54,025 bases of DNA from Clostridia bacterium (GTDB lineage Bacteria; Bacillota; Clostridia; Christensenellales; CAG-138), in assembly GCA_017525875.1 (NCBI GenBank), contig JAFXSG010000023.1, forward strand, positions 1 through 54,025. Reading direction: 5' to 3'. Shown piece after piece: positions 42,019 to 54,025 of the stretch (positions within the stretch are counted from its first letter, which is position 1; every line of letters starts with the position of its first letter). The position numbers and the translations under genes are program-made. The notes below the pieces were generated by a model. That model ran no database searches. It saw only the letters and a list, made by a program, of their open reading frames with translations, and was not told where the DNA came from.

Positions 42019-43110
42019 TTAAGCGTTTTCGACCTCGCGGACGTATTTTTCGACCACGATATTCCGGTCGAACTCCCTTTCGACCTTTGCACGGCCGTTT
42101 TTGCCGAGCCGCTCTTTCTCTTCATCCGGAAGGGCGATGAACTTTTCGAGCACGGATACGAGGCTTTGGGTATTTTTGGCCTCCACGACGAAACCGTTTA
42201 CGCCGTCCTCCACCACCTCGCGGCAGCCGCTGCGGTCGGTAGTGATGATCGGCCTGCCGGTGGCGCAGGCTTCGAGCAGAACGTTGCTTATCCCCTCCGG
42301 GTAATAGGTCGGGTGGACGATGCAGTTCATTTCCGCCATGAAACCGGCGACGTCGCGGATCATGCCGTGGTAGTTCACGATCCCCTTTGTGTGGAGCTCC
42401 CCGAGCCTGCCGCTGTATTCGTCCTCCGCAAAGCCGCAGACGTGGAACTCCGCCTCGGGATGCGTTCTTTTGATGATCTCCGCCGCTTCGAGGTATTGGT
42501 CGGTCCCCTTCTCCTTCATGATGCGGCTGATGAACGCAAAGCGGATCCTGTTGCCGCAGGGATAGGGCATGTACGGATAGCGCGAAAGGTTCACGCCGGA
42601 GCCGGGCAGCATGGCGGGCGCCCGAACAGCGATATTGCGCTCCGCGAAAAACCTGCGGTTCTCCTCATTCTGGAAGAAAACGCGCCGGATGCCGCGGAAG
42701 GCGTATTTGTAGAGCAGGACGATGATCCTTTGCGAAAGGCCGGGGTTCTCGACGGCGGTCCCGAGGCCGGTTATGTTGGCAACGAACGGGATGCCGAGCT
42801 TTCTTGCGGCGATAGCGCCGTAGATGTTCGGCTTGATGGTGAAGCCGAGGCAAATATCCGGCCCGATCTCCCGAAAAAGCTTTTTATACTCGCCGATCAG
42901 TTTGAACTCCCTGAAGGGGTTCATCCCATGCCTTTCCATCGAGATATCGTGGAATTTGGCGCCGAGCGCAACAAGATCGTCTATGCGCTCACCGTAGGGC
43001 GACGAGATATGCACATCATGCCCGTCCGCGATAAGGCGTTCGACGATCTCTAAGCGGAAGTTATAGATAACGACGTCGTGATTTACAAGAAACAGAACGG
43101 TCTTTCCCAT
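42019..43110 (-). CDS. Glycosyltransferase family 4, exopolysaccharide type
   Basis: A 363-residue GT-B glycosyltransferase. The N-terminal domain opens VLFLVNHDVVIYNFRLEI and contains FTIKPNIYGAIAARK and FVANITGLGT, as in capsule transferases such as CapM-like enzymes; the C-terminal GT4 domain has RIMKEKGTDQYLEAAEII and the donor-binding HPTYYPEGISNVLLEACATG with the EX7E pair. It adds a sugar to a lipid-linked precursor on the cytoplasmic face. Start and upstream stop share one base (TGATG). Last gene of the three-gene module. Confidence 0.9.
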   Translation of the reverse strand: MGKTVLFLVNHDVVIYNFRLEIVERLIADGHDVHISSPYGERIDDLVALGAKFHDISMERHGMNPFREFKLIGEYKKLFREIGPDICLGFTIKPNIYGAIAARKLGIPFVANITGLGTAVENPGLSQRIIVLLYKYAFRGIRRVFFQNEENRRFFAERNIAVRAPAMLPGSGVNLSRYPYMPYPCGNRIRFAFISRIMKEKGTDQYLEAAEIIKRTHPEAEFHVCGFAEDEYSGRLGELHTKGIVNYHGMIRDVAGFMAEMNCIVHPTYYPEGISNVLLEACATGRPIITTDRSGCREVVEDGVNGFVVEAKNTQSLVSVLEKFIALPDEEKERLGKNGRAKVEREFDRNIVVEKYVREVENA

Positions 43111-43988
43111 CAGTTTACGGATTCCTCAATGCTTTGTTCAAGCGAGTAGACGCGATAATCCGGATCGTGCCGGCTGAGCTCCTCTTCGAAGGTAAGGTTG
43201 CCGAAAGCCTTTGAGATCGTGTTCGAACCGCGGCCGAGCAGCTTGAAAAGCCAGTTGAAGCCCGGCACGAGAACGGTCTTTTTGCCTCTTGTCGCACGGA
43301 TCAGGCGGATGAGCTCGCTTGTGTTGGAATACTCGCGGTTGGAGGGCCAGAATATGCCCTCGTCGCCGTTCTCGATCGCGACGCGCAAGTATTCGGCGAG
43401 GTTGCCGACATAAAGCATGGAGCGCTCGTTTTTGATCTTCGGGAAGAAAAGCGCGAGCTTTGCGTATCTGAGCATCGTCGGGAAATTGCCCTTGCAGTTT
43501 TTGCCGTAGATAATCGGGCAGCGGAGGATGAGCGGACGGAAGCTTTCGTCGCGAAGCGCCATGACGCCCTTTTCCGCGCGGAACTTGCTCTCGCCGTAGA
43601 TATTGAAGGGGGCGGGCTCGCTCGACCTTGTGATCACCTTGGAGCAACCGATCGCGGCGGCGCGGCCGTAGACGAGCGAGGTGGACATGAATATGAATTG
43701 GCGGACGCCGGCGTTCCTGGCCTTTTCGGCGCAGGCGATCGCGAGATCGGTGTTGACTCGGAAATAGTTCAGGGTCTCGCTTTCGGTGAGATTGCAGAAA
43801 TCCGAATGAGCTATGCCGGCAACGTGATAAACGACGTCATACGGGGAAAAATCGAAGGTCTCCCATTCGCCGTGCTCGGTGCCGACCTCGGTGACGGCAA
43901 AGCCGCCCGCCGCCTCGAGATAGACGCGGACGAAGGTCCCGACGTATGAATTTGTGCCGACTATAAGAACTTTTTTCATATTGATCAC
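43110..43988 (-). CDS. NAD-dependent epimerase/dehydratase
   Basis: Extended short-chain dehydrogenase of 292 residues. The nucleotide-binding loop is GTNSYVG at about 11-17 (GxxxxxG), VYHVAGIAH follows, and the catalytic pair is YGESK at about 155-159 with FMSTSLVYG. It probably modifies a nucleotide sugar for the adjacent transferases; the exact reaction is not clear. Two starts are possible: GTG at 43988, overlapping the upstream stop as GTGA, or ATG at 43979. Confidence 0.83.
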   Translation of the reverse strand: MINMKKVLIVGTNSYVGTFVRVYLEAAGGFAVTEVGTEHGEWETFDFSPYDVVYHVAGIAHSDFCNLTESETLNYFRVNTDLAIACAEKARNAGVRQFIFMSTSLVYGRAAAIGCSKVITRSSEPAPFNIYGESKFRAEKGVMALRDESFRPLILRCPIIYGKNCKGNFPTMLRYAKLALFFPKIKNERSMLYVGNLAEYLRVAIENGDEGIFWPSNREYSNTSELIRLIRATRGKKTVLVPGFNWLFKLLGRGSNTISKAFGNLTFEEELSRHDPDYRVYSLEQSIEESVN

Positions 43989-44632
43989 TGATCGGTGCCC
44001 GTCTTTTTGATATCGTCTTTTGCGGCAAGCCTGCCCGTTCCGCCCTCTACGACGCCTTCGTGCTTCGCTACCGAAGCGAAGGTGCCGAAGAAGCAGCGAA
44101 TATCCATCCCGAAAGCAGTCAGGCCGCCCTTGCGGATGGCTTCCGCATACTGACCGTCGAACTTTGCCTTGACGGGGATCGGAAGCTCGTCCCTGCCGCT
44201 GATCTGAGCAAGGCCGGTGAGCCCTGGTTTAACGGCGTTCGCGCCGTATTTATCGCGCTCGGCTGTGAGGTCGTACTGGTTCCACAGCGCGGGACGCGGG
44301 CCGACAAAGCTCATCCTGCCCGAGAAGATGTTGAAAAGCTGCGGGATCTCGTCGATGCTCATGCGGCGCATCGCCTTCTGAAAGCCGCTCAGCATATCCT
44401 CCGCACGAAACTGGTGCGTGGGCGTGTCGTGCGGAACGGTCGTGGGCATGGAGCGGAATTTGATGATGTTGAACTCCGTTTTATTGATCCCGATCCTGCG
44501 CTGCCTGAAGAAGACGGGACCTTTGGAATCAAACTTTATGATGACCGCGATGATCGCCATCGGCAGCGCAAGCACGATGATGCCGAGCGATGAAAGCACG
44601 ATATCGAAAAATCTTTTGAAGAAAGGATACAT
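43985..44632 (-). CDS. Initiating sugar phosphate transferase (undecaprenyl-phosphate)
   Basis: Monotopic phosphoglycosyl transferase of 215 residues of the WcaJ/EpsL/PglC family, which loads the first sugar phosphate on undecaprenyl phosphate. One membrane segment (about 10-33) precedes the catalytic domain with GPVFFRQRRIG, FNIIKFRSM, the Asp-Glu pair in RMSIDEIPQLFNIFSGRMS and VGPRPAL, and KPGLTGLAQISGRD. GGGAGAGG precedes the ATG. First gene of the module with a near-perfect promoter. Confidence 0.93.
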   Translation of the reverse strand: MYPFFKRFFDIVLSSLGIIVLALPMAIIAVIIKFDSKGPVFFRQRRIGINKTEFNIIKFRSMPTTVPHDTPTHQFRAEDMLSGFQKAMRRMSIDEIPQLFNIFSGRMSFVGPRPALWNQYDLTAERDKYGANAVKPGLTGLAQISGRDELPIPVKAKFDGQYAEAIRKGGLTAFGMDIRCFFGTFASVAKHEGVVEGGTGRLAAKDDIKKTGTDQ

Positions 44633-44798: not shown

Positions 44799-46541
44799 TC
44801 AATCGCAGTGTTCCGCTGCGGTATGCTCGGCAGCTCCTCCCTCGCTGAACGCGATCACGCGGTCGCATATCGAAAGCGCGGCCGGACGGTGGGTCACGAT
44901 GATGACCGTTTTGTCCGTCAGGCTCCGAAGGTTCATGAGCAGACGCTTCTCGGTGCTTTCATCGAGCGCGCTCGTTGCCTCGTCAAGAAGAAGCACAGGC
45001 GCGCCGGAGAACAGCGCCCTCGCTATCGCAACGCGCTGCATCTGCCCCTCCGAGAGGCCGCTGCCGCGTTCGCCGAGCGGTGTATCGAGCCCGGCGGAAA
45101 GCTCCGCGAGGAAATCTCCCGCGCAGGCGATATCGAGCGCTTGGGTCAGTTTTTCGTCATCGCCGACGGAGGAGGGATCGCCGATCGAGACCACTTCGCG
45201 CAGAGTGCCGGTCATGAGCTGGTTGCCCTGCGGAACGTAGGCAAAGAGGCTTCGCCATTCCGGCGTGAGCGGGAGCTCGGCGCCGCTTGCGGTGCGGATA
45301 AAACCGCTGCCGCCGTCCGGCTTATACATGCACATCAAAAGCTTCAGCACGGTGGACTTGCCGCAGCCGCTGTGGCCGGTGAAGGCGACGTACTCTCCCC
45401 TGCCGATGCCGATGCTGAAATCCGACAGCACGGAGGGCGCCGGACCGGTTTCGTTTTCATCATCGCGGAAGGGATAGGTAAAGCTTGCGTTTTTAAGCCC
45501 GAAGGAGGAAAGCTCGCCGCGGTAGAACCGCTGCGCTTCTTCCTTTGAGACGGCTTTGCCCCGCATATCCGGCGCGAGACGCTCGACCTCCATCAGGCGT
45601 TCCGCGCTCGCGAGCATGGCGTAATACCTCGGAAGATACCCGGATATGTTCGTGAACGGCGCCTGGACCTGGGAGATCAGCTGCATGATCGCCGTCAGCG
45701 TGCCGTAGGTCACGAGCCCGTGCAGGATGCCGTACGCGCAGTAGACCACCCCTATGAGATACATTCCGTGCACGGCGACGCCGAGGCCGAATGCGGCGAG
45801 GTTGGAAAGGCGATTGCGCCTGAGCCTCGCCCGCTTGTGCTCCTCCATGTGTTCGCCCGCTTCGGCAAGCGTACGCTCCTCCGCGGAGAAGGACTTGACG
45901 ATCATCAGGCTGCCCAAATGCTCCTGCAGGAAAACGCGCAGCCTGCCGTCCTTTTCCTGGATGTTCTTATGCAGCTTTTTGAGCTTTCCGCGGAACGCGT
46001 AAGTAACGAGGATCAAAGCGATGCCGCCGGGGATCAGGATGAACGCGAAGCGGTAATCGAGCGCGATGATCATTACGAGCGCGCTCACGAGGCGGACGAT
46101 CATCCCGATCAGGCCGGGCAGGATCTCCGTGTAGGCCTTAGCGACGACGTCCGTGTCGTTCGTGAGGCGGTTCAGCCATTCGGCGGTATGCACGCCGGTG
46201 ACGGAAGCATAGTCCTTTTTGAGGATGTTTTCGGTGAGCCGTTTTTTGAAGAGGTTTTCGATCTCGGACTTTGAAAGCACGTTCAGCCAGCGCGAAAGCG
46301 CGGCGACGCCGAGCTGGAACAGCACGAGAGCGGCGATCATGATGGAGCAGCGCCAGAACGCCGGGGTATTGCCCGAGACGGCGCTGTCCACGATATTGCG
46401 CAGCAGGAGCGCGTAAAAGACGCCCGTTGCGCCGTTCACGGCGTTCAGCAGGATCAGAAGAACAACGTACCATTTTTTCCTGCCCGGGACGGCCAGGAGC
46501 CATTTCACAGTGCTGTTCACTTTTTCGCCGTTCTTGACCAT
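44799..46541 (-). CDS. ABC transporter, fused permease and ATPase (probable peptide exporter of the RiPP locus)
   Basis: Half-transporter of 580 residues. Six helices (about 24-290) form an ABC exporter membrane domain; the ATPase has Walker A GHSGCGKST (389-397), signature LSEGQMQR (496-503), Walker B VLLLDEAT (516-523) and the switch His in VTHRP. There is no N-terminal C39 leader peptidase domain, so leader removal must be done elsewhere, presumably by the S26 peptidase just upstream. The annotated ATG overlaps that gene by 25 bases; a GTG at 46520 overlapping its stop as GTGA is an alternative start. Last gene of the RiPP operon. Confidence 0.9.
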   Translation of the reverse strand: MVKNGEKVNSTVKWLLAVPGRKKWYVVLLILLNAVNGATGVFYALLLRNIVDSAVSGNTPAFWRCSIMIAALVLFQLGVAALSRWLNVLSKSEIENLFKKRLTENILKKDYASVTGVHTAEWLNRLTNDTDVVAKAYTEILPGLIGMIVRLVSALVMIIALDYRFAFILIPGGIALILVTYAFRGKLKKLHKNIQEKDGRLRVFLQEHLGSLMIVKSFSAEERTLAEAGEHMEEHKRARLRRNRLSNLAAFGLGVAVHGMYLIGVVYCAYGILHGLVTYGTLTAIMQLISQVQAPFTNISGYLPRYYAMLASAERLMEVERLAPDMRGKAVSKEEAQRFYRGELSSFGLKNASFTYPFRDDENETGPAPSVLSDFSIGIGRGEYVAFTGHSGCGKSTVLKLLMCMYKPDGGSGFIRTASGAELPLTPEWRSLFAYVPQGNQLMTGTLREVVSIGDPSSVGDDEKLTQALDIACAGDFLAELSAGLDTPLGERGSGLSEGQMQRVAIARALFSGAPVLLLDEATSALDESTEKRLLMNLRSLTDKTVIIVTHRPAALSICDRVIAFSEGGAAEHTAAEHCD

Positions 46542-46972
46542 ATAAGCCTGTTTCTGAGCCTTTTCAGGGGCATTTTGATCTTATGCGCGGCAAAGCGCAG
46601 CGGGTAGATGAAGTTCCAGAGCCGGGCGTAGAGGCGATAGCCAAGGTCCGCGGTCTTATGCCTTTTGCCTTTATGGACGAACTCGGTGAGCACGCCGAGG
46701 ACTTGCGTTTCGCGGATGCCGAACTCCTTGAAAAAATTGTTGTCCCCGCGGCAAATATAGCCTTTTTCGTCCCTGCCGATCACGCGGTGAAGCACGTAGT
46801 TATCGGGCGTGCGGTAGAGCGCGACGTCGTATTTTTTGAGCCGCTCGGGGGCTTTTTCAACGGTGACGACGTCGCCAGATGAAGCCAGCATCGGCCACAT
46901 GCTGAAGCCGTGCGTTGTGTAAACGAGCTTCCCTTCGCGCTCTATGACCTGTTCAAAAGTCAGTTCGTTCAT
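46517..46972 (-). CDS. S24/S26 family signal-peptidase-like protease
   Basis: A 151-residue protease of the S26 type. The nucleophile Ser24 lies in HGFSMWPML (GxSMxP) and the general base is His62 in YVLHRVIG, giving a Ser-His dyad as in SipW/archaeal-type peptidases rather than the bacterial Ser-Lys. There is no transmembrane helix before the Ser, unlike true signal peptidases; a basic hydrophobic C-terminal segment may associate with the membrane. It overlaps the PqqD gene by 4 bases (ATGA). Probable leader peptidase for the precursor at 48666-48824; this is inferred from context. Confidence 0.82.
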   Translation of the reverse strand: MNELTFEQVIEREGKLVYTTHGFSMWPMLASSGDVVTVEKAPERLKKYDVALYRTPDNYVLHRVIGRDEKGYICRGDNNFFKEFGIRETQVLGVLTEFVHKGKRHKTADLGYRLYARLWNFIYPLRFAAHKIKMPLKRLRNRLIWSRTAKK

Positions 46973-47229
46973 TCATCTATCGCTCCTATCGAGCGCAGTT
47001 TCGCAATAATATCGGAAACGTCCGCTGCGAGCACCTCGCGCGGGGCGTCGTATTCAAGGCACATGGCGTCGACTATCGCCTCTTCGGTCGTTCCGGAGGC
47101 AAGCATATCGACGATGAAAGCCGCGGGGCCGTTGCTGCGCGCTACGCCGCCGAAGGCCTCGCCGCCGATCGGGACAAGGTACTGCATGCCGTCGATCTCC
47201 TGCGTTAAAAAGTTTGATCTCAGCTTCAT
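46969..47229 (-). CDS. PqqD-like RiPP recognition element protein
   Basis: An 86-residue PqqD-family protein: a winged-helix fold that binds leader peptides and delivers them to maturation enzymes. Visible are the N-terminal strands (FLTQEIDGMQYLVPIGGEAF), the NGPAAFIVDML helix and the C-terminal DVSDIIAKLRSIGAID that is typical of PqqD. AAGGA 6 bases before 47229 supports this start over the Met at 47250, which overlaps the radical SAM gene. It lies between the maturase and the peptidase. Confidence 0.85.
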   Translation of the reverse strand: MKLRSNFLTQEIDGMQYLVPIGGEAFGGVARSNGPAAFIVDMLASGTTEEAIVDAMCLEYDAPREVLAADVSDIIAKLRSIGAIDE

Positions 47230-47246
47230 AACGGTTCCTTTCGCTT

Positions 47247-48617
47247 TCATTCCACCGGAGGCTCATTATCGGGTCCAGGCGGCGCGCCCGCGTCGGCCCG
47301 GCGCACGAGCTCGTAAAGCGTCGGCAGAGCGCGCATGCGCCGCACGGCCGCGCAGTCCCGATCGACGATCGGGCAATGCGTGAACGCGGTGCAGTCCGGA
47401 AGAAAAGTGCAGGTTTTGCATTCGGCGCGGAGCTTCCCGAGAGAGGTGAACTCACGGAGCGCCGCAGCATCGGTGACGCCGTCGAACACGTTCCCGTAGG
47501 ACGAGCCCTCGGGACACTGCAGGCACGGGAACAGCCTCCCGTCCGGCGCGATGAGCACGCCGCCGCCCGCCTCGTCCATCATGCAGTGATGCACGCGGAA
47601 AGCCGTGTCCAGCCCGCCCATGCGGTCATAGCGGAGACCGGAGGCTTCTATAAGATCTCCGGCTGCTATGATCGACCGCCAGAGCTCCGGGCCGTGCTCC
47701 CCCGCCCTTGCCTGATCGAGCGGAACGAAGGCGCAGCTGACCATGCTTTTGTCCCGTACGGCTGCGGACAGATCCGAAAGCACCTGCGGGATATCGGCGA
47801 TATTGTCCATATCCACGTTGCAGCGGACGCTGACTGAGACGCCGTGACGGGTCAGCGTGTTGATGTTCTCAAGGACGCGCTCATAATTGCCGGGCGACGG
47901 ATAGCGCTTGCGTTTTTCGTAGTCCGCGCGGGCGCCGTCCATGGAGAGCTGGGCGGACCACACGCGCCATTTCGAAGCCATCTTTTCGGCGAGCGCGTCG
48001 GTGATCAGGCTGCCGTTGGTGACGATGCGCGCGTCAAAATCCACGGCTCGCTTTTCAAGCTCATCGCAGATCCTGTCGATCTGCTTTTCGCCGAGCAGTG
48101 GTTCGCCGCCGAACCATATCAGCCTGGTAAAGGTCCCTTCGCGGCGCGTGCGGGCTATGAAGTCAGCCGCAGCGGCGGCGGTCTTTTCGTTCATAACGGA
48201 CTTTTGAAGACCCGCCTCATAGCAGTAGACGCAGCGCGCGTTGCAGGCGAGCGTCGGCATGATTGTGAAGGTAGAATAGCCCTTCTTCCTGAGGAAGGCG
48301 CGTTTCAGCGCGGAGACGCCCTCGTACACGGCGCACTCGTTCGCGGCTTCCGGCACAAGAAAGCGCATGCGCATCAGCTCGGTAAGCTCACTTTTTTCGG
48401 CGATCTCGCCTGCGGAAACAGGCTCAAAGCTCTCGAGCGCGATGCTGAGCTCGACGCAGTGCTTCGTGAGCGTATTGAAGGCAAAATGCCTGTTGCCGTA
48501 TTGAAAGCCGATGACGAACTGCGAAACAAAGAAGAGCCCGTCCGAGCTTGCGGACTGCTGCGGCAGGATCTTCCCGATCAGTTTATCCGGTCCGAATATC
48601 GTCTTCATGGTACACAT
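47247..48617 (-). CDS. Radical SAM/SPASM peptide maturase
   Basis: A 456-residue radical SAM enzyme of the peptide-modifying type. An N-terminal region (about 1-110) resembling a fused recognition domain precedes the 4Fe-4S motif C125-x3-C129-x2-C132 (CNARCVYC), the FGGEPLL motif (169-175) and the TIM-barrel core. The C-terminal SPASM region has C345, C365, C368, C400, C403, C409, C415 and C422, enough for two auxiliary clusters. Such enzymes install thioether, C-C or other crosslinks in a ribosomal peptide. The start is ATG at 48617 or 48608; neither has a clear ribosome binding site. The precursor gene lies 48 bases upstream. Confidence 0.9.
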   Translation of the reverse strand: MCTMKTIFGPDKLIGKILPQQSASSDGLFFVSQFVIGFQYGNRHFAFNTLTKHCVELSIALESFEPVSAGEIAEKSELTELMRMRFLVPEAANECAVYEGVSALKRAFLRKKGYSTFTIMPTLACNARCVYCYEAGLQKSVMNEKTAAAAADFIARTRREGTFTRLIWFGGEPLLGEKQIDRICDELEKRAVDFDARIVTNGSLITDALAEKMASKWRVWSAQLSMDGARADYEKRKRYPSPGNYERVLENINTLTRHGVSVSVRCNVDMDNIADIPQVLSDLSAAVRDKSMVSCAFVPLDQARAGEHGPELWRSIIAAGDLIEASGLRYDRMGGLDTAFRVHHCMMDEAGGGVLIAPDGRLFPCLQCPEGSSYGNVFDGVTDAAALREFTSLGKLRAECKTCTFLPDCTAFTHCPIVDRDCAAVRRMRALPTLYELVRRADAGAPPGPDNEPPVE

Positions 48618-48619
48618 AA

Positions 48620-48649
48620 CAGCGGCCCGAGCCTGAGCCCGGGCTGCTG
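48620..48649 (-). terminator. Intercistronic hairpin between precursor and maturase genes
   Basis: The two arms 48620-48632 and 48637-48649 form a GC-rich stem of 13 positions with one mismatch and one G-T pair around a 4-base loop. There is no T tract, so it is more likely an attenuating or RNA-stabilising structure than a full terminator. It begins 17 bases after the precursor stop and ends 3 bases before the maturase start. Confidence 0.6.
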
Positions 48650-48665
48650 CCGCATTGCTTTTGGC

Positions 48666-48824
48666 TCAGTTGCCGCAAGCGTCCTGGTCGCCCTCCCCAC
48701 CGTGCGGCGGAAGGAAGGGGGAACCGCCACCGGTGTAGGTGGTGGAGGGAGTGTCACCGGACGCGGTGACGACGTCGCCGGAGATCTCGATGATCTCCAT
48801 GCTGGCTTTTTCGTACTTCTTCAT
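48666..48824 (-). CDS. RiPP precursor peptide candidate, 52 residues
   Basis: Short gene opened by AAAGGAG 7 bases before the ATG at 48824. The peptide begins MKKYEKASMEIIEISGDVVT, a Lys/Glu/Ile leader-like segment, and passes ASG at 21-23 into a C-terminal part rich in Gly, Pro, Ser, Thr and Asp (TYTGGGSPFLPPHGG at 29-43) ending DACGN with a single Cys50. From memory, similar small peptides with an MKKYEKP...-type start are common in gut Clostridia. It sits between the kinase (48 bases) and the maturase (48 bases), the expected precursor position. Candidate modified residues are Thr/Tyr/Ser/Asp in 24-37 and Cys50. Confidence 0.8.
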   Translation of the reverse strand: MKKYEKASMEIIEISGDVVTASGDTPSTTYTGGGSPFLPPHGGEGDQDACGN

Positions 48825-48872
48825 GAATGAGCTCCTTTCATGAGACTTATGATCACCTGAGCAAGGCAGGAG

Positions 48873-49637
48873 TCATACGGGATCGGGTTTGCCCGGGTTC
48901 ATGCCGCGCCATGCGGTGAGCGCGGCGTCGGGCTGCATATTGCAGCGCAGGCGGTAGAACGGGACCGACGCGGCGAGCTTGCTTTCAAGCTCGAGTATCG
49001 TGCGCATGTTCTCCGGAGAACAGGATGAGAACACCTGACGGAGCAGCAGCGGGAACCTTTCCGGGGCTTCGAGCGGGACGATGGAATTCGTTTCGCCCCT
49101 TTCGAGCGAGACGATCGCTTTCAGCGGCGACCGAGCATTGCAGCCGAGGCCGTGCTTGCCGTACCACGGCGTTCCGAACACGGTGACGCCGCTTGATTCG
49201 ACGCGGAGCATCGGCTTATCGTCGTTGATCATGCGGCACCTGCCGGGGAATGCCTCGCGCCAGAGCCTTGTGTGCGTGCTCTTCCCCGTTCCGCTTTTGG
49301 CGGTGAAGATATAGGTCTCCCCGTCCATTTCAAGGGCGGAGCCGTGCATGAGCAGCACGTTCTTTTGGACGAGCGCCTCTGCGAGCAGGGTGTGGATGGC
49401 GCCGTTTTCGAGGTACCAAAGCCTGTAGCTCCGGTCGCCCCTGCCCTCAGCTATATCCGCCCTGCGGAAGCTCTCCTTGACCCTCGCGATATCGTCTTCG
49501 GAGGGTTCGATAGTGATCTCCGCCTCCCGCCCTGTCAGGTAATCGCGGAAATAGTCTTTATTCTTCGGATATCGGGCGCGGATCTCGACGGGTATCCCGG
49601 CGATCTCGGCGGTAAATACAGTTTGATCCCCGTTCAT
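48873..49637 (-). CDS. HPr-kinase-like kinase of the RiPP locus
   Basis: A 254-residue kinase related to HPr(Ser) kinase. The key elements are His98 in LLMHGSALE, the P-loop AKSGTGKST (113-121), and the Asp pair in MINDDKPML (about 136-144), the HprK Walker-B-like motif. It lacks the HprK N-terminal domain and true HPr context. Similar stand-alone kinases occur in lasso and other peptide clusters, where they phosphorylate the peptide. GAGGGA before 49637 sets the start MNGDQTVFT; the frame up to 49724 overlaps the promoter. First gene of the operon. Confidence 0.82.
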   Translation of the reverse strand: MNGDQTVFTAEIAGIPVEIRARYPKNKDYFRDYLTGREAEITIEPSEDDIARVKESFRRADIAEGRGDRSYRLWYLENGAIHTLLAEALVQKNVLLMHGSALEMDGETYIFTAKSGTGKSTHTRLWREAFPGRCRMINDDKPMLRVESSGVTVFGTPWYGKHGLGCNARSPLKAIVSLERGETNSIVPLEAPERFPLLLRQVFSSCSPENMRTILELESKLAASVPFYRLRCNMQPDAALTAWRGMNPGKPDPV

Positions 49638-49695
49638 GGGCAAGTCCCTCTTGAACTCAGAGCAATTCGCAGAATGCGTAAACTTCTTCGCATAC

Positions 49696-49724
49696 AGTAT
49701 ATATATCGTCCCGCAAAAAGTCAA
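49696..49724 (-). promoter_or_regulatory. Promoter of the RiPP operon
   Basis: TTGACT (49724-49719), a 17-base spacer, TATACT (49701-49696) on the minus strand. No other promoter was found between here and the ABC transporter, so kinase, precursor, maturase, PqqD, peptidase and exporter are probably one transcript. Confidence 0.85.
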
Positions 49725-49766
49725 GCGTTCCGCCTAATATTCTGCTTTGCAGGGCTTCGCACACGA

Positions 49767-49796
49767 TTGACCGCGTCAGGCGCGGTATGCTATAAT
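49767..49796 (+). promoter_or_regulatory. Divergent promoter of the nucleotidyltransferase gene
   Basis: TTGACC (49767-49772), an 18-base spacer, perfect TATAAT (49791-49796). Its -35 is 42 bases from the -35 of the RiPP operon, so the two could share regulation. Confidence 0.8.
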
Positions 49797-49825
49797 AAGC
49801 CAAATCGTTTTCATGGGAGCCGGAC

Positions 49826-51052
49826 ATGAACAGCACACAGCAAGCGTCCATCAAGCTACTAGCGCACTGCCTGAATGAAGAAAGCAGCGCTTCTTCTTTT
49901 ATGCCCCTTTCAGCGGACGACCCCGCATGGAAGGAGCTGTATGAGGAGCTGTTTGCCCACAAGGTGTTTTCGCTGTGCGACAAATGGCTGCTCGGCGCGC
50001 CCCTTGCGGACGAGGAGCTCAAGGCACGCTGGAAAAACGATGATTACAAGGTCCAGTTCCACTGCCTGCGGGTCATGGCTGCGCAGGCTGAGCTTTGCGC
50101 TCTGCTCGCCGAAAACGGGATCGACGCCGTCGTCATGAAGGGCGCTGCGGCGGCTGTGAACTATCCCGCCCCGTTCCTCAGAGCCATGGGAGACATCGAC
50201 CTGCTCGTGCGGCGCCGCGACTATGATTCGGCGTGCAGTCTGGCGGAGGAAAACGGCTATATCCTCAACAATACCGATCCGAACGTTACGCATCACTGCG
50301 CTTTCATTAAAAACGGGATTGAGGTCGAGATCCACAGAAGGCCCGGCAGCGTTACGGAGACGAACGAGTCCCTTATCGCGCTTTTCGAGGAAGGCATCAC
50401 AAACAGGCAGACCGCCTCGATCGACAAATTCAGCTTCCCCGTTCTGCCCGCTGATCTCAACGGGCTGGTGCTTCTTCTGCATATAAACCAGCATCTGCGC
50501 GCCGGTCTCGGCCTGAGGCAGATCATAGACTGGATGACGTTCGCTTCCCGCGAGCTGACCGGCGACGGCTATGACAAGCTGCTCCGTCCCCTGCTTACGC
50601 GGCTCGGGCTCGACCGTTTTGCCGCCTCGGTGACCGCGCTTTGCAGGAGGTATCTCGGCCTTGAAGGAGACTTTTCCTGGGCCGACGGGATCGCGGAAGA
50701 CGTTACCGACGAGTTCATGGAATACATTATGAGCATGGGCAATTTCGGCTCCAAGGCGGACAGTGGAGACCGCATCTCTTCCGCTTATTCCCGCGCGAAG
50801 AATCCGTTCAGGCTCATCTCCATCCTGCAAAAGAGCGGCTTGCGGCACTGGGACGCGGCGAAGAAGCACGCGCTGCTCCGCCCGTTTGCCTGGATCCGGC
50901 AGGGCTTTGTGACGCTGCGCGATATGAAAAAGAACGATATCCCGCTCAGCAAGCTGAAGCAGCTGCGCGCGTCCGGCGAAAAGAACCGCGAGCTCTATGA
51001 AAAGCTCGGCCTTACTTCGGAGAACAAAATGAACACGGGCGTAGTCGACTGA
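49826..51052 (+). CDS. Nucleotidyltransferase family protein (NTP_transf_5 type)
   Basis: A 408-residue protein of the uncharacterised nucleotidyltransferase family found in peptide and polysaccharide clusters. Its core is VVMKGAAAAVNYPAPFLRAMGDIDLLV: Lys105-Gly-Ala, Arg119 and the metal-binding Asp pair D123 and D125 in MGDIDLLV. A helical domain follows (VLLLHINQHLRAGLGLRQIIDW at about 211-232). GGGAG precedes the ATG. It is divergent from the HPr-kinase-like gene with a shared control region. It may nucleotidylate the peptide or a sugar; the substrate is unknown. Confidence 0.82.
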   Translation: MNSTQQASIKLLAHCLNEESSASSFMPLSADDPAWKELYEELFAHKVFSLCDKWLLGAPLADEELKARWKNDDYKVQFHCLRVMAAQAELCALLAENGIDAVVMKGAAAAVNYPAPFLRAMGDIDLLVRRRDYDSACSLAEENGYILNNTDPNVTHHCAFIKNGIEVEIHRRPGSVTETNESLIALFEEGITNRQTASIDKFSFPVLPADLNGLVLLLHINQHLRAGLGLRQIIDWMTFASRELTGDGYDKLLRPLLTRLGLDRFAASVTALCRRYLGLEGDFSWADGIAEDVTDEFMEYIMSMGNFGSKADSGDRISSAYSRAKNPFRLISILQKSGLRHWDAAKKHALLRPFAWIRQGFVTLRDMKKNDIPLSKLKQLRASGEKNRELYEKLGLTSENKMNTGVVD

Positions 51053-51069
51053 CAGCAGGCGAACATATA

Positions 51070-51104
51070 AAAACAGGCAAAGCCTTTTCGGCTTTGCCTG
51101 TTTT
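51070..51104. terminator. Bidirectional terminator
   Basis: Perfect 15-bp stem: 51070-51084 and 51090-51104 (AAAACAGGCAAAGCC and its complement) around a 5-base loop, with T runs on both strands. It ends the nucleotidyltransferase gene and the converging protease gene. Confidence 0.92.
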
Positions 51105-51117
51105 GTTCATTGACGCA

Positions 51118-54025
51118 TCAGGAAACGATGTTCATGACCAGGCGCATGATCAGCACGGCGTCGGAGGCGGTAAGCTGCCCGTCGCCGTCCATATCGCCGT
51201 TCACGAAGCCCTGACCGGTGATCGTGGTGATGCTCATCGCGTGGCGCATAACAAGCAGCGCGTCCGCGGCGGTGACTTCGCCGTCAAGATCGACGTCGCC
51301 GAGGAGGGTCACGGAAGGACCGTTCTCCTCGTAGAGCGCGGTGACGGTGAGATCGGAGGTGACGACGGAGAAATCAACGTCCCAGCCGATGAAGGTGTAG
51401 CCCTCGCGGGAAGGATCGTCCGGCGCGGTGGCGAAGCCGCCGTAGACGACCGTCTCGGTCTTGAGGACGGCGCCGTTCCAGTCGACGAAGGTGACGGTGT
51501 ATCTGTTGATTTCATACATGGCCGTGATGTTCTTGTCGAAGGTCACGTTGGTATAGTCGCCGGACCAGCCGGTGAAGGTGTAGCCCTCGCGGATGGGATC
51601 GGCGGGAGGCGTCGCGTCCCCGCCGTATTCGACGGTCTGCACCTTGAGCACGGTGCCGTCCCAGTCGCGGAAGGTGACGGTATAGGTATTGATCGTGTAC
51701 TGAGCGGTGACGGTCAAATCGCTCGTGACGTTCGAGAAATCGACGTCCCAGCCGGTGAAGGTGTAGCCCACTCGGCTCGGATCCGAGGGAGCGGTGGCGG
51801 CGCCGCCTTCGGGAACGCTCTCGGTCTTGAGCACGGCGCCGTCCCAGTCGACAAAGGTGACGGTGTAGTAGACCGGCTCGGGTTCGGAAGCGGAGACCCA
51901 CTTGTAGAACCTGATCAGGCCGTTCGTGCTCTTGCTGGTGGTGAAGTAGTTGCTGTTGGTGCTGAGGGCGAGGTAATAATAGCCCTCGGAGTCGATCTGG
52001 TTGTTGAGGTCGCCGTTCTGATACAGCCACGCAACGGGCGTTGCGGAGGGATAGAGATACTCGGATGAGTCGAGACCCATGTACTTTCCGTTGCCGAGGT
52101 TCTTGAAGGTGTAACCCGCGGAAGCGGTGCCGGATTCGATCTCCCAAAGGATCGTGTTGGCGTCCAGAGAGGCGGGAACGGTGACGGTATTGTCGCTGTT
52201 CACGGTCACGCCGTGAGCCGTGAGATAGTGGTTGCTTGAATAGATCGTGTTGCCGACGGCCTGGCTGCCGGAGCAGATGATGTACTGCCCGCCCACCTCG
52301 AGCTCGCTCGTGAGGATATAGCCCTCGAACTCGCTCACGGTGACGTTTGCCGTCGCGGTCGCGACGACTGCGCCGGTATCGGGATCGGTCGCGGTGGCGG
52401 TGATGACCGCAGTGCCCGCGGCGACGCCAAGCACGGACGCGCTGTTCTTGCTGCCGGCAACGGTCGCGACGTTCGCGTTGCTGCTGGTCCACGCAATCTC
52501 GTAGTTATTGGCGTTCTGCGGGACCTTGTTGACGGTCAGCGTTGCGGAATTGCCGACGACGACCTCAGCGTTCTCGGGAGTCAGCGTCATGGAGACGAGA
52601 TCGACGGGATCGATCGATCCGCCCTCGCCGGTGAGCGTGTAGACGGAAGATGTGTTGTGGCCGTAGTCGCCCACCTTGACGTAGACGGTGCTGTAATTGC
52701 CGATGCTGAGGGTGAGGTCGCTGTCCGCTCCCCTGCTCGTTTCGCAGATTGCCTGCTCCGTGATCTTGGTGGTGCAGGCCGCGTTAGAGTAAACGCCGAT
52801 CCACGCTGCGTAATGCTCGTCGTGTACGCGTACGGTCAGCGTGCCGTTCTCGACCTTCCAGTAGGTCACTTCCGGAGCGGTATTGTCGACCGTCATGGGG
52901 AGCACGATCTCGGCGCACTCGTTCTGGTCCGGAGTGAAGCCGGGATTGTCGAGGTAGTGATAGAGCTTGAAGACGATGTGCGTGCCCTCGGCAAGGCCGG
53001 TCGGCGCCCAGCTGGTGAAGAGGTCGCCGATATTGTCGGAGCTGTGATAGAAGGTGGCGGAGGAGTTGCCGTTCGGGTAGTTCCAGGCCTTGGGCATGTA
53101 GGAAAGGTCGACGTCGACGTAGGTCTCGCCGGTGTCCTCGTTGTAGATCCTGATGCCGCCCTCGCCCGCGTTGCGGATCAGGTCGTAGGTGAGCTTATCG
53201 ATCTGCTCGTAATAGGTATCGCCGTTCGGAGAGAGCGTGCAGCGGTCGGCAAGCCAGTCGCTGGAGGTCACGTACGGGTTTGCGCCGAAGAGCATGTAGC
53301 TCGAGCCGCTTGTGACGGCGCCGACCTCGGCCTGATAGCTGTGGATATTGTAGTGGTTTATGCCCTGGATCTCGTCGATGTAGGTGTAACGGTCGAAGAC
53401 GGAGGCCCGGTTCCAGTTGCCGTAGAAGCCGAGGAACGGGACGACGAGGTCCACGGTGCCGTCGCAGACGACGAAGCCGTCGATATAGATGCCGTTCGGG
53501 AACTTGCTGTCAAGATCGCTCTTGATGCTGCTGTTCAGGGTGACGGTCAGAGTGACGTTCTTAGTGCTGTTCGCGGGAACGGTCACGGACGTGTCGCCGC
53601 TTATCGTCGCGGAGGAGGTGATGTTCCTGTTCGAGCCGGAGAGGGTGACGACGCTCTGGCTGTTGACGGTGGCGGTACCGGTGTTCTCGGTGAGAACGGT
53701 GGTGTTCATCGTGTAGGAGAGGGCCGTGCTGCCGAAGTTGACGATGTTGAAGCTCAGCGTGTAGACGCCGGTCTTATTCGGGTCGTCGCCAATCTCGAGC
53801 TTCGGTCGCTCGCAGCCGTCCACTGTGATGTAGGCCTTGGTGGTGATGGCCTTCTGAAGGTCGATGATGCCTGCGCCCTGGGTGCGAGGAGAGGTCGCGG
53901 AAACGGGGTTCGCGGTGCACATCAGCAGGCGGTTGACCATCGCGATCTTATCGCGGCCGGTGAGGTTCGGCCAGGTAGCCGAAACGTAATTGGTGAGCAG
54001 CGCCTGCGCGCCGGCGACGTGCGGG
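51118..54025 (-). CDS. Secreted subtilisin-like (S8) serine protease, C-terminal part, with Big_2, InlB repeats and dockerin
   Basis: The visible 968 residues are the 3' part of a large exported protein; the gene runs off the right edge. It opens PHVAGAQALLTNYV, which in subtilases directly follows the catalytic GTSMA, so the active Ser lies just outside. A long Fn3-like/lactocepin-type region (53940-52620) is followed by a Big_2 domain (about 52600-52325, VVGNSATLTVNKVP), an unassigned domain (about 52320-51880), three InlB-type repeats and a C-terminal dockerin with two Asp-rich calcium motifs (DVDLDGEVTAADALLVMR; DMDGDGQLTASDAVLIMR). It is expected to act outside the cell, perhaps docked to a scaffold. 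Confidence 0.9.
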   Translation of the reverse strand, partial: PHVAGAQALLTNYVSATWPNLTGRDKIAMVNRLLMCTANPVSATSPRTQGAGIIDLQKAITTKAYITVDGCERPKLEIGDDPNKTGVYTLSFNIVNFGSTALSYTMNTTVLTENTGTATVNSQSVVTLSGSNRNITSSATISGDTSVTVPANSTKNVTLTVTLNSSIKSDLDSKFPNGIYIDGFVVCDGTVDLVVPFLGFYGNWNRASVFDRYTYIDEIQGINHYNIHSYQAEVGAVTSGSSYMLFGANPYVTSSDWLADRCTLSPNGDTYYEQIDKLTYDLIRNAGEGGIRIYNEDTGETYVDVDLSYMPKAWNYPNGNSSATFYHSSDNIGDLFTSWAPTGLAEGTHIVFKLYHYLDNPGFTPDQNECAEIVLPMTVDNTAPEVTYWKVENGTLTVRVHDEHYAAWIGVYSNAACTTKITEQAICETSRGADSDLTLSIGNYSTVYVKVGDYGHNTSSVYTLTGEGGSIDPVDLVSMTLTPENAEVVVGNSATLTVNKVPQNANNYEIAWTSSNANVATVAGSKNSASVLGVAAGTAVITATATDPDTGAVVATATANVTVSEFEGYILTSELEVGGQYIICSGSQAVGNTIYSSNHYLTAHGVTVNSDNTVTVPASLDANTILWEIESGTASAGYTFKNLGNGKYMGLDSSEYLYPSATPVAWLYQNGDLNNQIDSEGYYYLALSTNSNYFTTSKSTNGLIRFYKWVSASEPEPVYYTVTFVDWDGAVLKTESVPEGGAATAPSDPSRVGYTFTGWDVDFSNVTSDLTVTAQYTINTYTVTFRDWDGTVLKVQTVEYGGDATPPADPIREGYTFTGWSGDYTNVTFDKNITAMYEINRYTVTFVDWNGAVLKTETVVYGGFATAPDDPSREGYTFIGWDVDFSVVTSDLTVTALYEENGPSVTLLGDVDLDGEVTAADALLVMRHAMSITTITGQGFVNGDMDGDGQLTASDAVLIMRLVMNIVS
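51322..51873 (-). repeat. Three tandem InlB-type (Listeria-Bacteroides) repeats
   Basis: Three consecutive units of about 60-65 residues inside the protease gene, each with TVTF.DW(D/N)G.VLK, GG.A..P.DP and GYTF.GW. The DNA copies are strongly similar, which makes the stretch prone to recombination and assembly collapse. Confidence 0.85.

Follow-up and report, generated by a model that had tools for sequence, protein, structure and literature searches.

A predicted radical SAM peptide locus with an HprK-type kinase module as one form of a modular Clostridial family

Among ribosomally synthesized and post-translationally modified peptides (RiPPs), the systems closest to the one investigated here are found in clusters for lasso peptides. 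Passages of four papers (PMC8498205, PMC10368454, PMC9266682 and PMC7533575, taken together) describe HprK-like kinases of such clusters that phosphorylate the precursor, with a His, a Lys and an Asp-Asp pair that matter for catalysis, and genes for a kinase, a PqqD protein and a nucleotidyltransferase that accompany lasso genes in rumen bacteria. According to excerpts of individual reports, BsfK phosphorylates its precursor in a reaction accelerated by the PqqD-type B1 protein of the bsf cluster (PMC10368454), and in pseudomycoidin the kinase PsmK and the nucleotidyltransferase PsmN give rise to a phosphate and subsequently to hexoses, the nucleotidyltransferase gene being needed for the latter (PMC9266682). 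In this study, we have analyzed a locus that combines a kinase module of this kind with a radical S-adenosylmethionine (SAM) enzyme. It is located in a stretch of 54,025 nucleotides from Clostridia bacterium (assembly GCA_017525875.1, contig JAFXSG010000023.1, positions 1 to 54,025), hereafter the window, and the respective genome is 92% complete. With a probability of about two in three, we consider it to be a RiPP locus of a modular Clostridial family that operates by the following mechanism, whose individual chemical steps, cut site and order of events we infer from features of the sequence, namely the genes, the pattern of leader and core, catalytic residues, predicted folds and co-occurrence. 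The PqqD protein would bind the YxxPxM-type leader and present the precursor to a radical SAM enzyme for modification of its core, probably in the form of a cross-link, an HprK-type kinase would phosphorylate the precursor on a Ser or Thr, a protease of the S26 family would cut near the conserved T-x-S junction ahead of a Cys or Gly, and an ATP-binding cassette (ABC) pump would export the product. A nucleotidyltransferase of the NTP_transf_5 family may extend this phosphate with a nucleotide or sugar, and the product would be expected to carry a phosphate or nucleotide. In such a system, radical SAM maturases and a lasso-type phosphorylating module are joined through one leader family.

With phosphorylated and phosphoglycosylated lasso peptides (paeninodin with PadeK, pseudomycoidin with PsmK/PsmN, and the product of BsfK) the locus shares a PqqD-type binder, an HprK-like kinase with its His, GKS and Asp-Asp motifs, a nucleotidyltransferase, an ABC exporter and a short precursor that has a Thr close to the cut and a leader of the Tyr-x-x-Pro-x-hydrophobic type. 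In contrast, a radical SAM enzyme and an S26 protease are found in place of the B2 protease and the cyclase. The B2 protease (PF13471) has no match in the genome at E<=0.001, on which ground a lasso cluster was rejected, and Pfam detects no asparagine-synthetase-like cyclase among the proteins of the locus, for which no genome-wide search was made. When 196 genomes of the class were searched for B2, four loci scored above the cut-off. Three of them (L193, L194 and L195, lasso-type by their B2 match) contain kinase-like genes that are only distantly similar to ours (20-31 bits) and NTP_transf_5 genes (39-204 bits), with PqqD in two and, by profile, an ABC exporter in two, whereas the fourth (L196) shows no match to kinase, PqqD or NTP_transf_5. 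By sequence, the module is shared in kind with lasso-type loci, yet its kinase looks like a clade of its own. The resemblance to other named systems is confined to scores below the cut-offs of the respective models. SynChlorMet (TIGR04249 ScmC, TIGR04250 ScmE) similarly combines a radical SAM/SPASM enzyme with a kinase-like protein of a related family, but the kinase reaches 22.5 of 125 bits and the maturase 69.1 of 400 bits, and the SynChlorMet cassette comprises two maturases compared to one in the window. TIGR04463, which concerns C-rich targets, and the PapB-type ranthipeptide maturases are among the closest named models of the maturase (131.9 and 94.8 bits), but miss their cut-offs of 525 and 340 bits, and the core in the window has a single Cys. 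The HPr-rel-A system (TIGR04352, TIGR04353) equally pairs an HprK-like kinase with a PqqD protein, although with scores of 17.2 of 200 and 14.8 of 35 bits, and we know of no maturase in this system. A description of the present gene set was not found in searches of openly licensed papers, which does not imply its absence from print. The words kinase, nucleotidyl, phosphoryl and S26 are absent from a review on radical SAM RiPPs in microbiomes (PMC8326336), and the kinase passages seen in a study on RiPP mining in Bacteroidales (PMC10352776) concern histidine kinases.

In the locus, a short linked precursor combines a conserved leader with a variable core, and the interpretation as a RiPP locus is well supported by the sequences compared. 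The precursor gene (48666..48824 on the minus strand of the window) codes for 52 residues, with the leader MKKYEKASMEIIEISGDVVTAS and the putative core GDTPSTTYTGGGSPFLPPHGGEGDQDACGN being separated at a predicted cut site. A preliminary description, made from the letters of this stretch, had proposed that the short peptide is a precursor-type gene, and this is borne out by its relatives: peptides of the same leader type are found near 77 of at least 118 distinct maturase open reading frames (ORFs), which score at least 90 bits and were deduplicated by their last 250 residues, a few being fragments. These peptides share the leader consensus Y-x-x-P-x-M-E-V-I…D-V-I-x-T-S-C/G, also written as MKKYEKPxMEVIEL..DVITxSC/G, followed by highly variable cores, and some loci carry two of them. 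The leader model A4 consists of 26 hand-picked rows and was used for the peptide searches in the genome and throughout the bacterial family. It matches the peptide of the window, which is a member of the model and carries an Ala at the position of the leader Pro, at E 1.7e-15 in its own genome. No Pfam or NCBIfam family was found for this peptide, and none of 26 examples of the leader type matches either database at E<=0.01. The peptide of the window is not a chance ORF, given that 46 of 103 genomes of the family, its own among them, encode this leader.

The junction between leader and core was defined by a pattern that requires Ser, Gly or Ala at position -1, which fits 65 of 75 peptides and does not match the other 10. 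Among these 65, a Ser occupies position -1 in 61 and a Gly in 4, position -3 holds Thr, Val or Leu in 55, and position +1 holds Cys in 27 and Gly in 18. Signal peptidases obey a rule of small residues at -3 and -1. Since the junction fits this rule, the S26 protease is a natural candidate for leader removal. A C-terminal HGxxGN..AC motif of the peptides was considered as a signature of the kinase and dropped; it is present in the nearest kinase loci, and its only four changes on a tree of the maturases provide too few informative pairs for a paired test. Upstream of the maturase, L047, L048, L049 and L050 contain two different precursors per maturase, one with an ending of the ELPELP/IELPDF type, which resembles that in the maturase-less kinase modules L166 and L168, and one that is rich in Cys.

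The enzymes of the locus are recognized by a combination of profiles, predicted folds and invariant residues. The kinase (48873..49637, minus strand) comprises 254 residues from an ATG at 49637, which is close to the length of its relatives and renders this start likelier than the TTG at 49724, from which the frame (48873-49724) is also readable. In Pfam it shows only a sub-threshold match to PEPCK that does not reach the cut-off. Its AlphaFold model (predicted local distance difference test, pLDDT, 96.3) is matched by Foldseek to PEPCK and HPr kinase/phosphorylase, including L. casei HprK/P, with E-values down to 5e-7 at template-modelling scores of about 0.5 or less. With this modelled fold and a P-loop accompanied by His98, Lys119, Asp139 and Asp140, which are all kept in 33 of 39 aligned sequences including our own, it qualifies as a predicted HprK/PEPCK-fold kinase, and its closest named model is ScmC of SynChlorMet, which 29 of the 39 members match at E<=0.001, well below the cut-off. 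The radical SAM/SPASM maturase (47247..48617, minus strand, 456 residues, Pfam Radical_SAM 59 bits) contains a CxxxCxxC motif at C125/C129/C132 and C-terminal cysteines at positions 345, 365, 400, 403, 409, 415 and 422, all invariant in 14 of 14 aligned sequences, and stays under the cut-off of each of the best 25 of 62 NCBIfam models matched. The adjacent PqqD-type protein (46969..47250, minus strand, 93 residues) has a PqqD domain in Pfam (49.3 bits), which predicts leader binding as a RiPP recognition element (RRE); its best NCBIfam relative is the lasso PqqD model NF033530 (33.7 bits compared to a cut-off of 70). The protease (46517..46972, minus strand, 151 residues) finds no match in Pfam, and its best NCBIfam model, TIGR02228, remains with 37.7 bits under the cut-off of 51.85. 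Its structural model (pLDDT 94.9) resembles signal peptidases and LexA/UmuD with a Foldseek probability of 1.00 in the top rows and E-values no better than 1.7e-3, and with Ser24 and His62 retained by all 36 aligned relatives, it is assigned by its modelled fold as a putative Ser-His protease of the S26/S24 type. It has no obvious membrane anchor (the highest mean hydropathy over 19 residues is 0.58). The exporter (44799..46541, minus strand) combines ABC_membrane and ABC_tran domains in Pfam and lacks a C39 peptidase, as initially described. The NTP_transf_5 nucleotidyltransferase (49826..51052, plus strand, 408 residues, Pfam 131.4 bits) carries its D-x-D motif at residue 122 within GDIDLLV.

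Relatives of the maturase illustrate how the genes of the locus are combined. A scan of genome collections yielded at least 79 maturase loci, with most hosts of the listed loci being Clostridia from gut and rumen, among them Ruminococcus flavefaciens ND2009, in addition to two Prevotella-type records. Within the bacterial family, where 103 genomes including our own were searched, the maturase is found in 31 at E<=1e-25, and 36 of 48 maturase matches have a leader peptide within 5 kb. The kinase resides near 45 of the 118 maturase ORFs, 43 times together with PqqD, and NTP_transf_5 is found near 15 of 114. Three genomes of the same genus share the order NTP_transf_5 (divergent), kinase, peptide, maturase and PqqD, two of them also with S26 and ABC, while the contig of the third stops inside PqqD. 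In R. flavefaciens ND2009 (L120), peptide, maturase, kinase, PqqD and S26 are consecutive. In six loci (L077, L078, L079, L083, L087 and L121), NTP_transf_5 follows downstream of S26 on the strand of the operon, which supports its role as part of the system. On a FastTree phylogeny of 114 of the 118 maturases, from which short or low-scoring sequences were left out, we find at least 24 changes of state for the kinase, at least 20 for S26 and at least 12 for NTP_transf_5, and these genes therefore behave as modules. A joint change of kinase and S26 on this tree (7 versus 1 pairs, median p 0.07) is suggestive only. A coupled gain or loss of NTP_transf_5 and kinase near maturases was rejected, with independent pairs averaging 1.6 for and 1.8 against it. 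As additional observations, L054 (7396-13550) has four maturases in an array and L146 (5227-9293) has three, with several leader peptides in the vicinity, and the Prevotella-type loci L151 and L152 (Bacteroidota) contain a maturase, PqqD, one or two kinases, weak S26-like genes and peptides of the KKKFEKP type.

At the level of genomes, the leader peptide is accompanied by the kinase rather than by the maturase. Among the 103 genomes, the kinase is found in 43 of 46 with a leader peptide compared to 15 of 57 others (Fisher p 1e-12), S26 in 44 of 46 compared to 15 of 57 (after six matches below 37 bits were dropped) and NTP_transf_5 in 38 of 46 compared to 16 of 57, whereas the maturase is detected in only 24 of 46 compared to 7 of 57. 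NTP_transf_5 is present in 50 of the 58 genomes with a kinase. Counted by genus (n=26), the peptide occurs in 7, the kinase in 11, S26 in 12 and the maturase in 6. The kinase had initially been regarded as a simple extra on a radical SAM locus, a view that we abandon since it is the kinase, rather more than the maturase, that accompanies the leader peptide, also in places where no maturase is close by. For 72 of 90 kinase matches no maturase is located within 5 kb. When 20 such maturase-free kinase regions were inspected, PqqD and/or S26 were identified by profile in 16, and in 9 an ABC exporter lies on the same strand beside PqqD/S26; the kinase stands alone in L174 and L180 and with NTP_transf_5 in L179, and it is not shown on the gene map of L162. 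From these sequence comparisons, the kinase would be more aptly described as belonging to a widespread module in which the maturase is optional. The genome of our bacterium contains a second module on contig C21 (L158, 6917-9518), which encodes a kinase, PqqD, a small membrane-type protein and NTP_transf_5 but no maturase and which adjoins a repeat protein of 2464 residues. An ORF of 115 residues just upstream of it (L158, 9606-9953) and one of 97 residues in L179 have N-termini that appear similar by eye (MSKxxF…VIGGGT.Q.G), and the two perhaps represent a second precursor family.

Several observations weigh against the proposed mechanism and its generality. No recognized leader-type peptide was found near 41 of the 118 maturase ORFs, among which some contigs are cut and a few ORFs are fragments. 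The conserved co-occurrence of six families that had been predicted for this system stands insofar as maturases of this family are repeatedly accompanied by kinase, PqqD, S26, exporter and NTP_transf_5, but all six are united at only 6 of 118. Moreover, the presence of NTP_transf_5 does not track the kinase on the maturase tree, the tests of co-occurrence ignore the relatedness of genomes, and among the 39 aligned kinases the first Asp of the motif is replaced by Gly in five and the His by Tyr in one. Finally, 3 of 22 peptides linked to a kinase lack any Ser or Thr past the putative cut. The target of the kinase therefore cannot always be a Ser or Thr of the core, and the idea of such a target throughout was rejected; for the same reason the phosphosite may be the conserved Thr or Ser of the junction. 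In turn, homologous loci do not consistently lack either the peptide or the kinase, which the preliminary description had named as the pattern that would speak against it.

The strongest alternative is compatible with the mechanism proposed above and wider in scope. It assumes that a module of kinase, PqqD, S26, ABC exporter and sometimes NTP_transf_5 generally acts as a hub that processes precursors scattered throughout the genome, with the maturase being optional, and we place it a little short of even odds. Its basis is the location of the leader peptides: of 119 matches at E<=0.001 in the family, 41 are within 5 kb of a maturase match and 15 of a kinase match, 13 are near both and 76 near neither. 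This last number is inflated by contig breaks, since peptides on cut contigs were counted as near neither, and orphans could also be unmodified or relics. Further in its favor, of the 22 peptide genomes in which no maturase was matched, 21 contain a kinase, and in the maturase-free modules L165, L166 and L168 a leader peptide is located immediately upstream of the kinase. The other 17 of the 20 inspected maturase-free regions show no leader peptide with a second profile, whose training set of 73 peptides includes at least two false ORFs, and 14 genomes contain kinase and S26 but no recognized leader peptide, both of which argue against a general hub. In our own genome, the family is represented by a single S26, located in the window, and by two leader peptides. 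The second is an orphan (contig C44:87110-87196, E 5e-9, sequence MKKYTELDMDVISFVKNDIVTASGDGNDDGGFDKDIDD) that is preceded by a Shine-Dalgarno-like site and has the same T-A-S-G-D junction as the peptide of the window. If it is processed, the enzymes of the window are candidates for this task, since they include the only S26 of the family in the genome, and a hub in the window would be expected to serve it. By eye, this orphan (L199, 9581-9697) is placed between genes for secreted repeat proteins and is followed by a hairpin with a run of T.

The neighborhoods of orphans were inspected in 20 selected stretches and in our own, which together cover 27 of the 76. For seven of the 27, the directly preceding ORF is on the same strand, has at least 250 residues and begins with a signal-peptide-like start, an arrangement that applies to 46 of 982 control genes (Fisher p 3e-4) and, within these stretches themselves, to 9 of 139 genes (p 0.006). 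Four are left undecided, since their upstream ORF extends beyond the sequence inspected, and the other 16 are arranged differently, including two behind an ORF of 1337 residues without a signal peptide. A looser count of 10 of 27 (p 2e-7), in which unfiltered frames were compared to a filtered control, was replaced by the 7 of 27 obtained by a common method. In Pfam, six large proteins that precede a peptide show cohesin (2), alpha-amylase (1) and InlB/Listeria-Bacteroides-type repeats (4), with no match for one. The orphan L209, examined in detail, does adjoin PqqD and S26, which counts against the hub. In light of these features, we tentatively put forward, with the odds leaning against it as a whole, that gut Clostridia may harbor a kinase-centered system in which a hub of kinase, PqqD, S26 and exporter, typically with one S26 per genome, would serve scattered leader peptides in trans, that many of these peptides would be encoded away from the hub, some right after genes for cohesin, amylase or InlB-repeat surface proteins, and that the phosphorylated and sometimes radical-cross-linked products might act with the cell surface instead of being classic antibiotics. 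The window would then display a form of this system with hub, maturase and one precursor in a single operon. It is this kinase-centered reading that would be new. If it were true that the hub serves scattered precursors, maturase-centered genome mining would overlook most substrates, and what the peptides do in gut bacteria could be tested in the sequenced and named R. flavefaciens ND2009.

An unlikely alternative holds that kinase and NTP_transf_5 modify another molecule or protein, such as components of exopolysaccharides or surface proteins, and are merely co-regulated with the peptide. This would account for the divergent orientation of NTP_transf_5, for the polysaccharide genes after the operon, for the second kinase-PqqD-NTP_transf_5 module of the genome, in which a maturase is absent, and for L193 and L194, where like genes appear by eye amid exopolysaccharide-type genes. 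It is at odds with the near-constant company of PqqD to the kinase beside maturases, with the association of leader peptide and kinase across genomes, and with the characterized relatives from lasso clusters, which phosphorylate the precursor. Very improbable is a lasso-like product with a fold made by a radical cross-link, for although the Y-x-x-P-x-M leader resembles the lasso contacts Tyr(-17), Pro(-14) and Leu(-12) given in an excerpt of PMC10368454 (with Ala for Pro in the window), the PqqD protein is closest, below cut-off, to the lasso type and lasso-type loci L193-L195 hold kinase-like and NTP_transf_5 genes, neither a B2 protease in the genome (at E<=0.001) nor a cyclase in the operon was detected and the kinases of lasso loci score poorly under our profile.

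The predicted RiPP locus has the layout of an operon, with 48 bp on either side of the peptide gene and subsequent overlaps of 4, 4 and 25 bp. All genes listed in the preliminary description were recovered at their positions, including the divergent NTP_transf_5, which had been placed about 200 bp away: the divergent gap measures 188 bp, and it holds the best sigma-70-like sites in both directions. A consensus scan places TTGACT-17-TATACT (49696..49724, minus strand, 10/12) ahead of the kinase and TTGACC-18-TATAAT with an extended -10 element (49767..49796, plus strand, 11/12) ahead of NTP_transf_5. Weaker 9/12 sites are found within the operon, and as a consensus prediction that relies on pattern matches, the single promoter claimed to drive the operon is only putative. 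Past the ABC gene, at 44774-44746, a 12/12 site lies ahead of the next gene. Directly 3' of the operon (42019-44632, minus strand) are polysaccharide-type genes, including a sugar transferase, an epimerase and a glycosyltransferase. On the other side, the scan identifies a terminator-like hairpin of 15 pairs (51070..51104) between NTP_transf_5 and a convergent surface-protein gene; it is listed on the minus strand, in the direction of the latter, and may serve NTP_transf_5 too. This convergent gene (51118-54024, minus strand), truncated by the end of the window, encodes a large, apparently secreted protein, in which InlB-type repeats and a dockerin-like C-terminus are discernible by eye.

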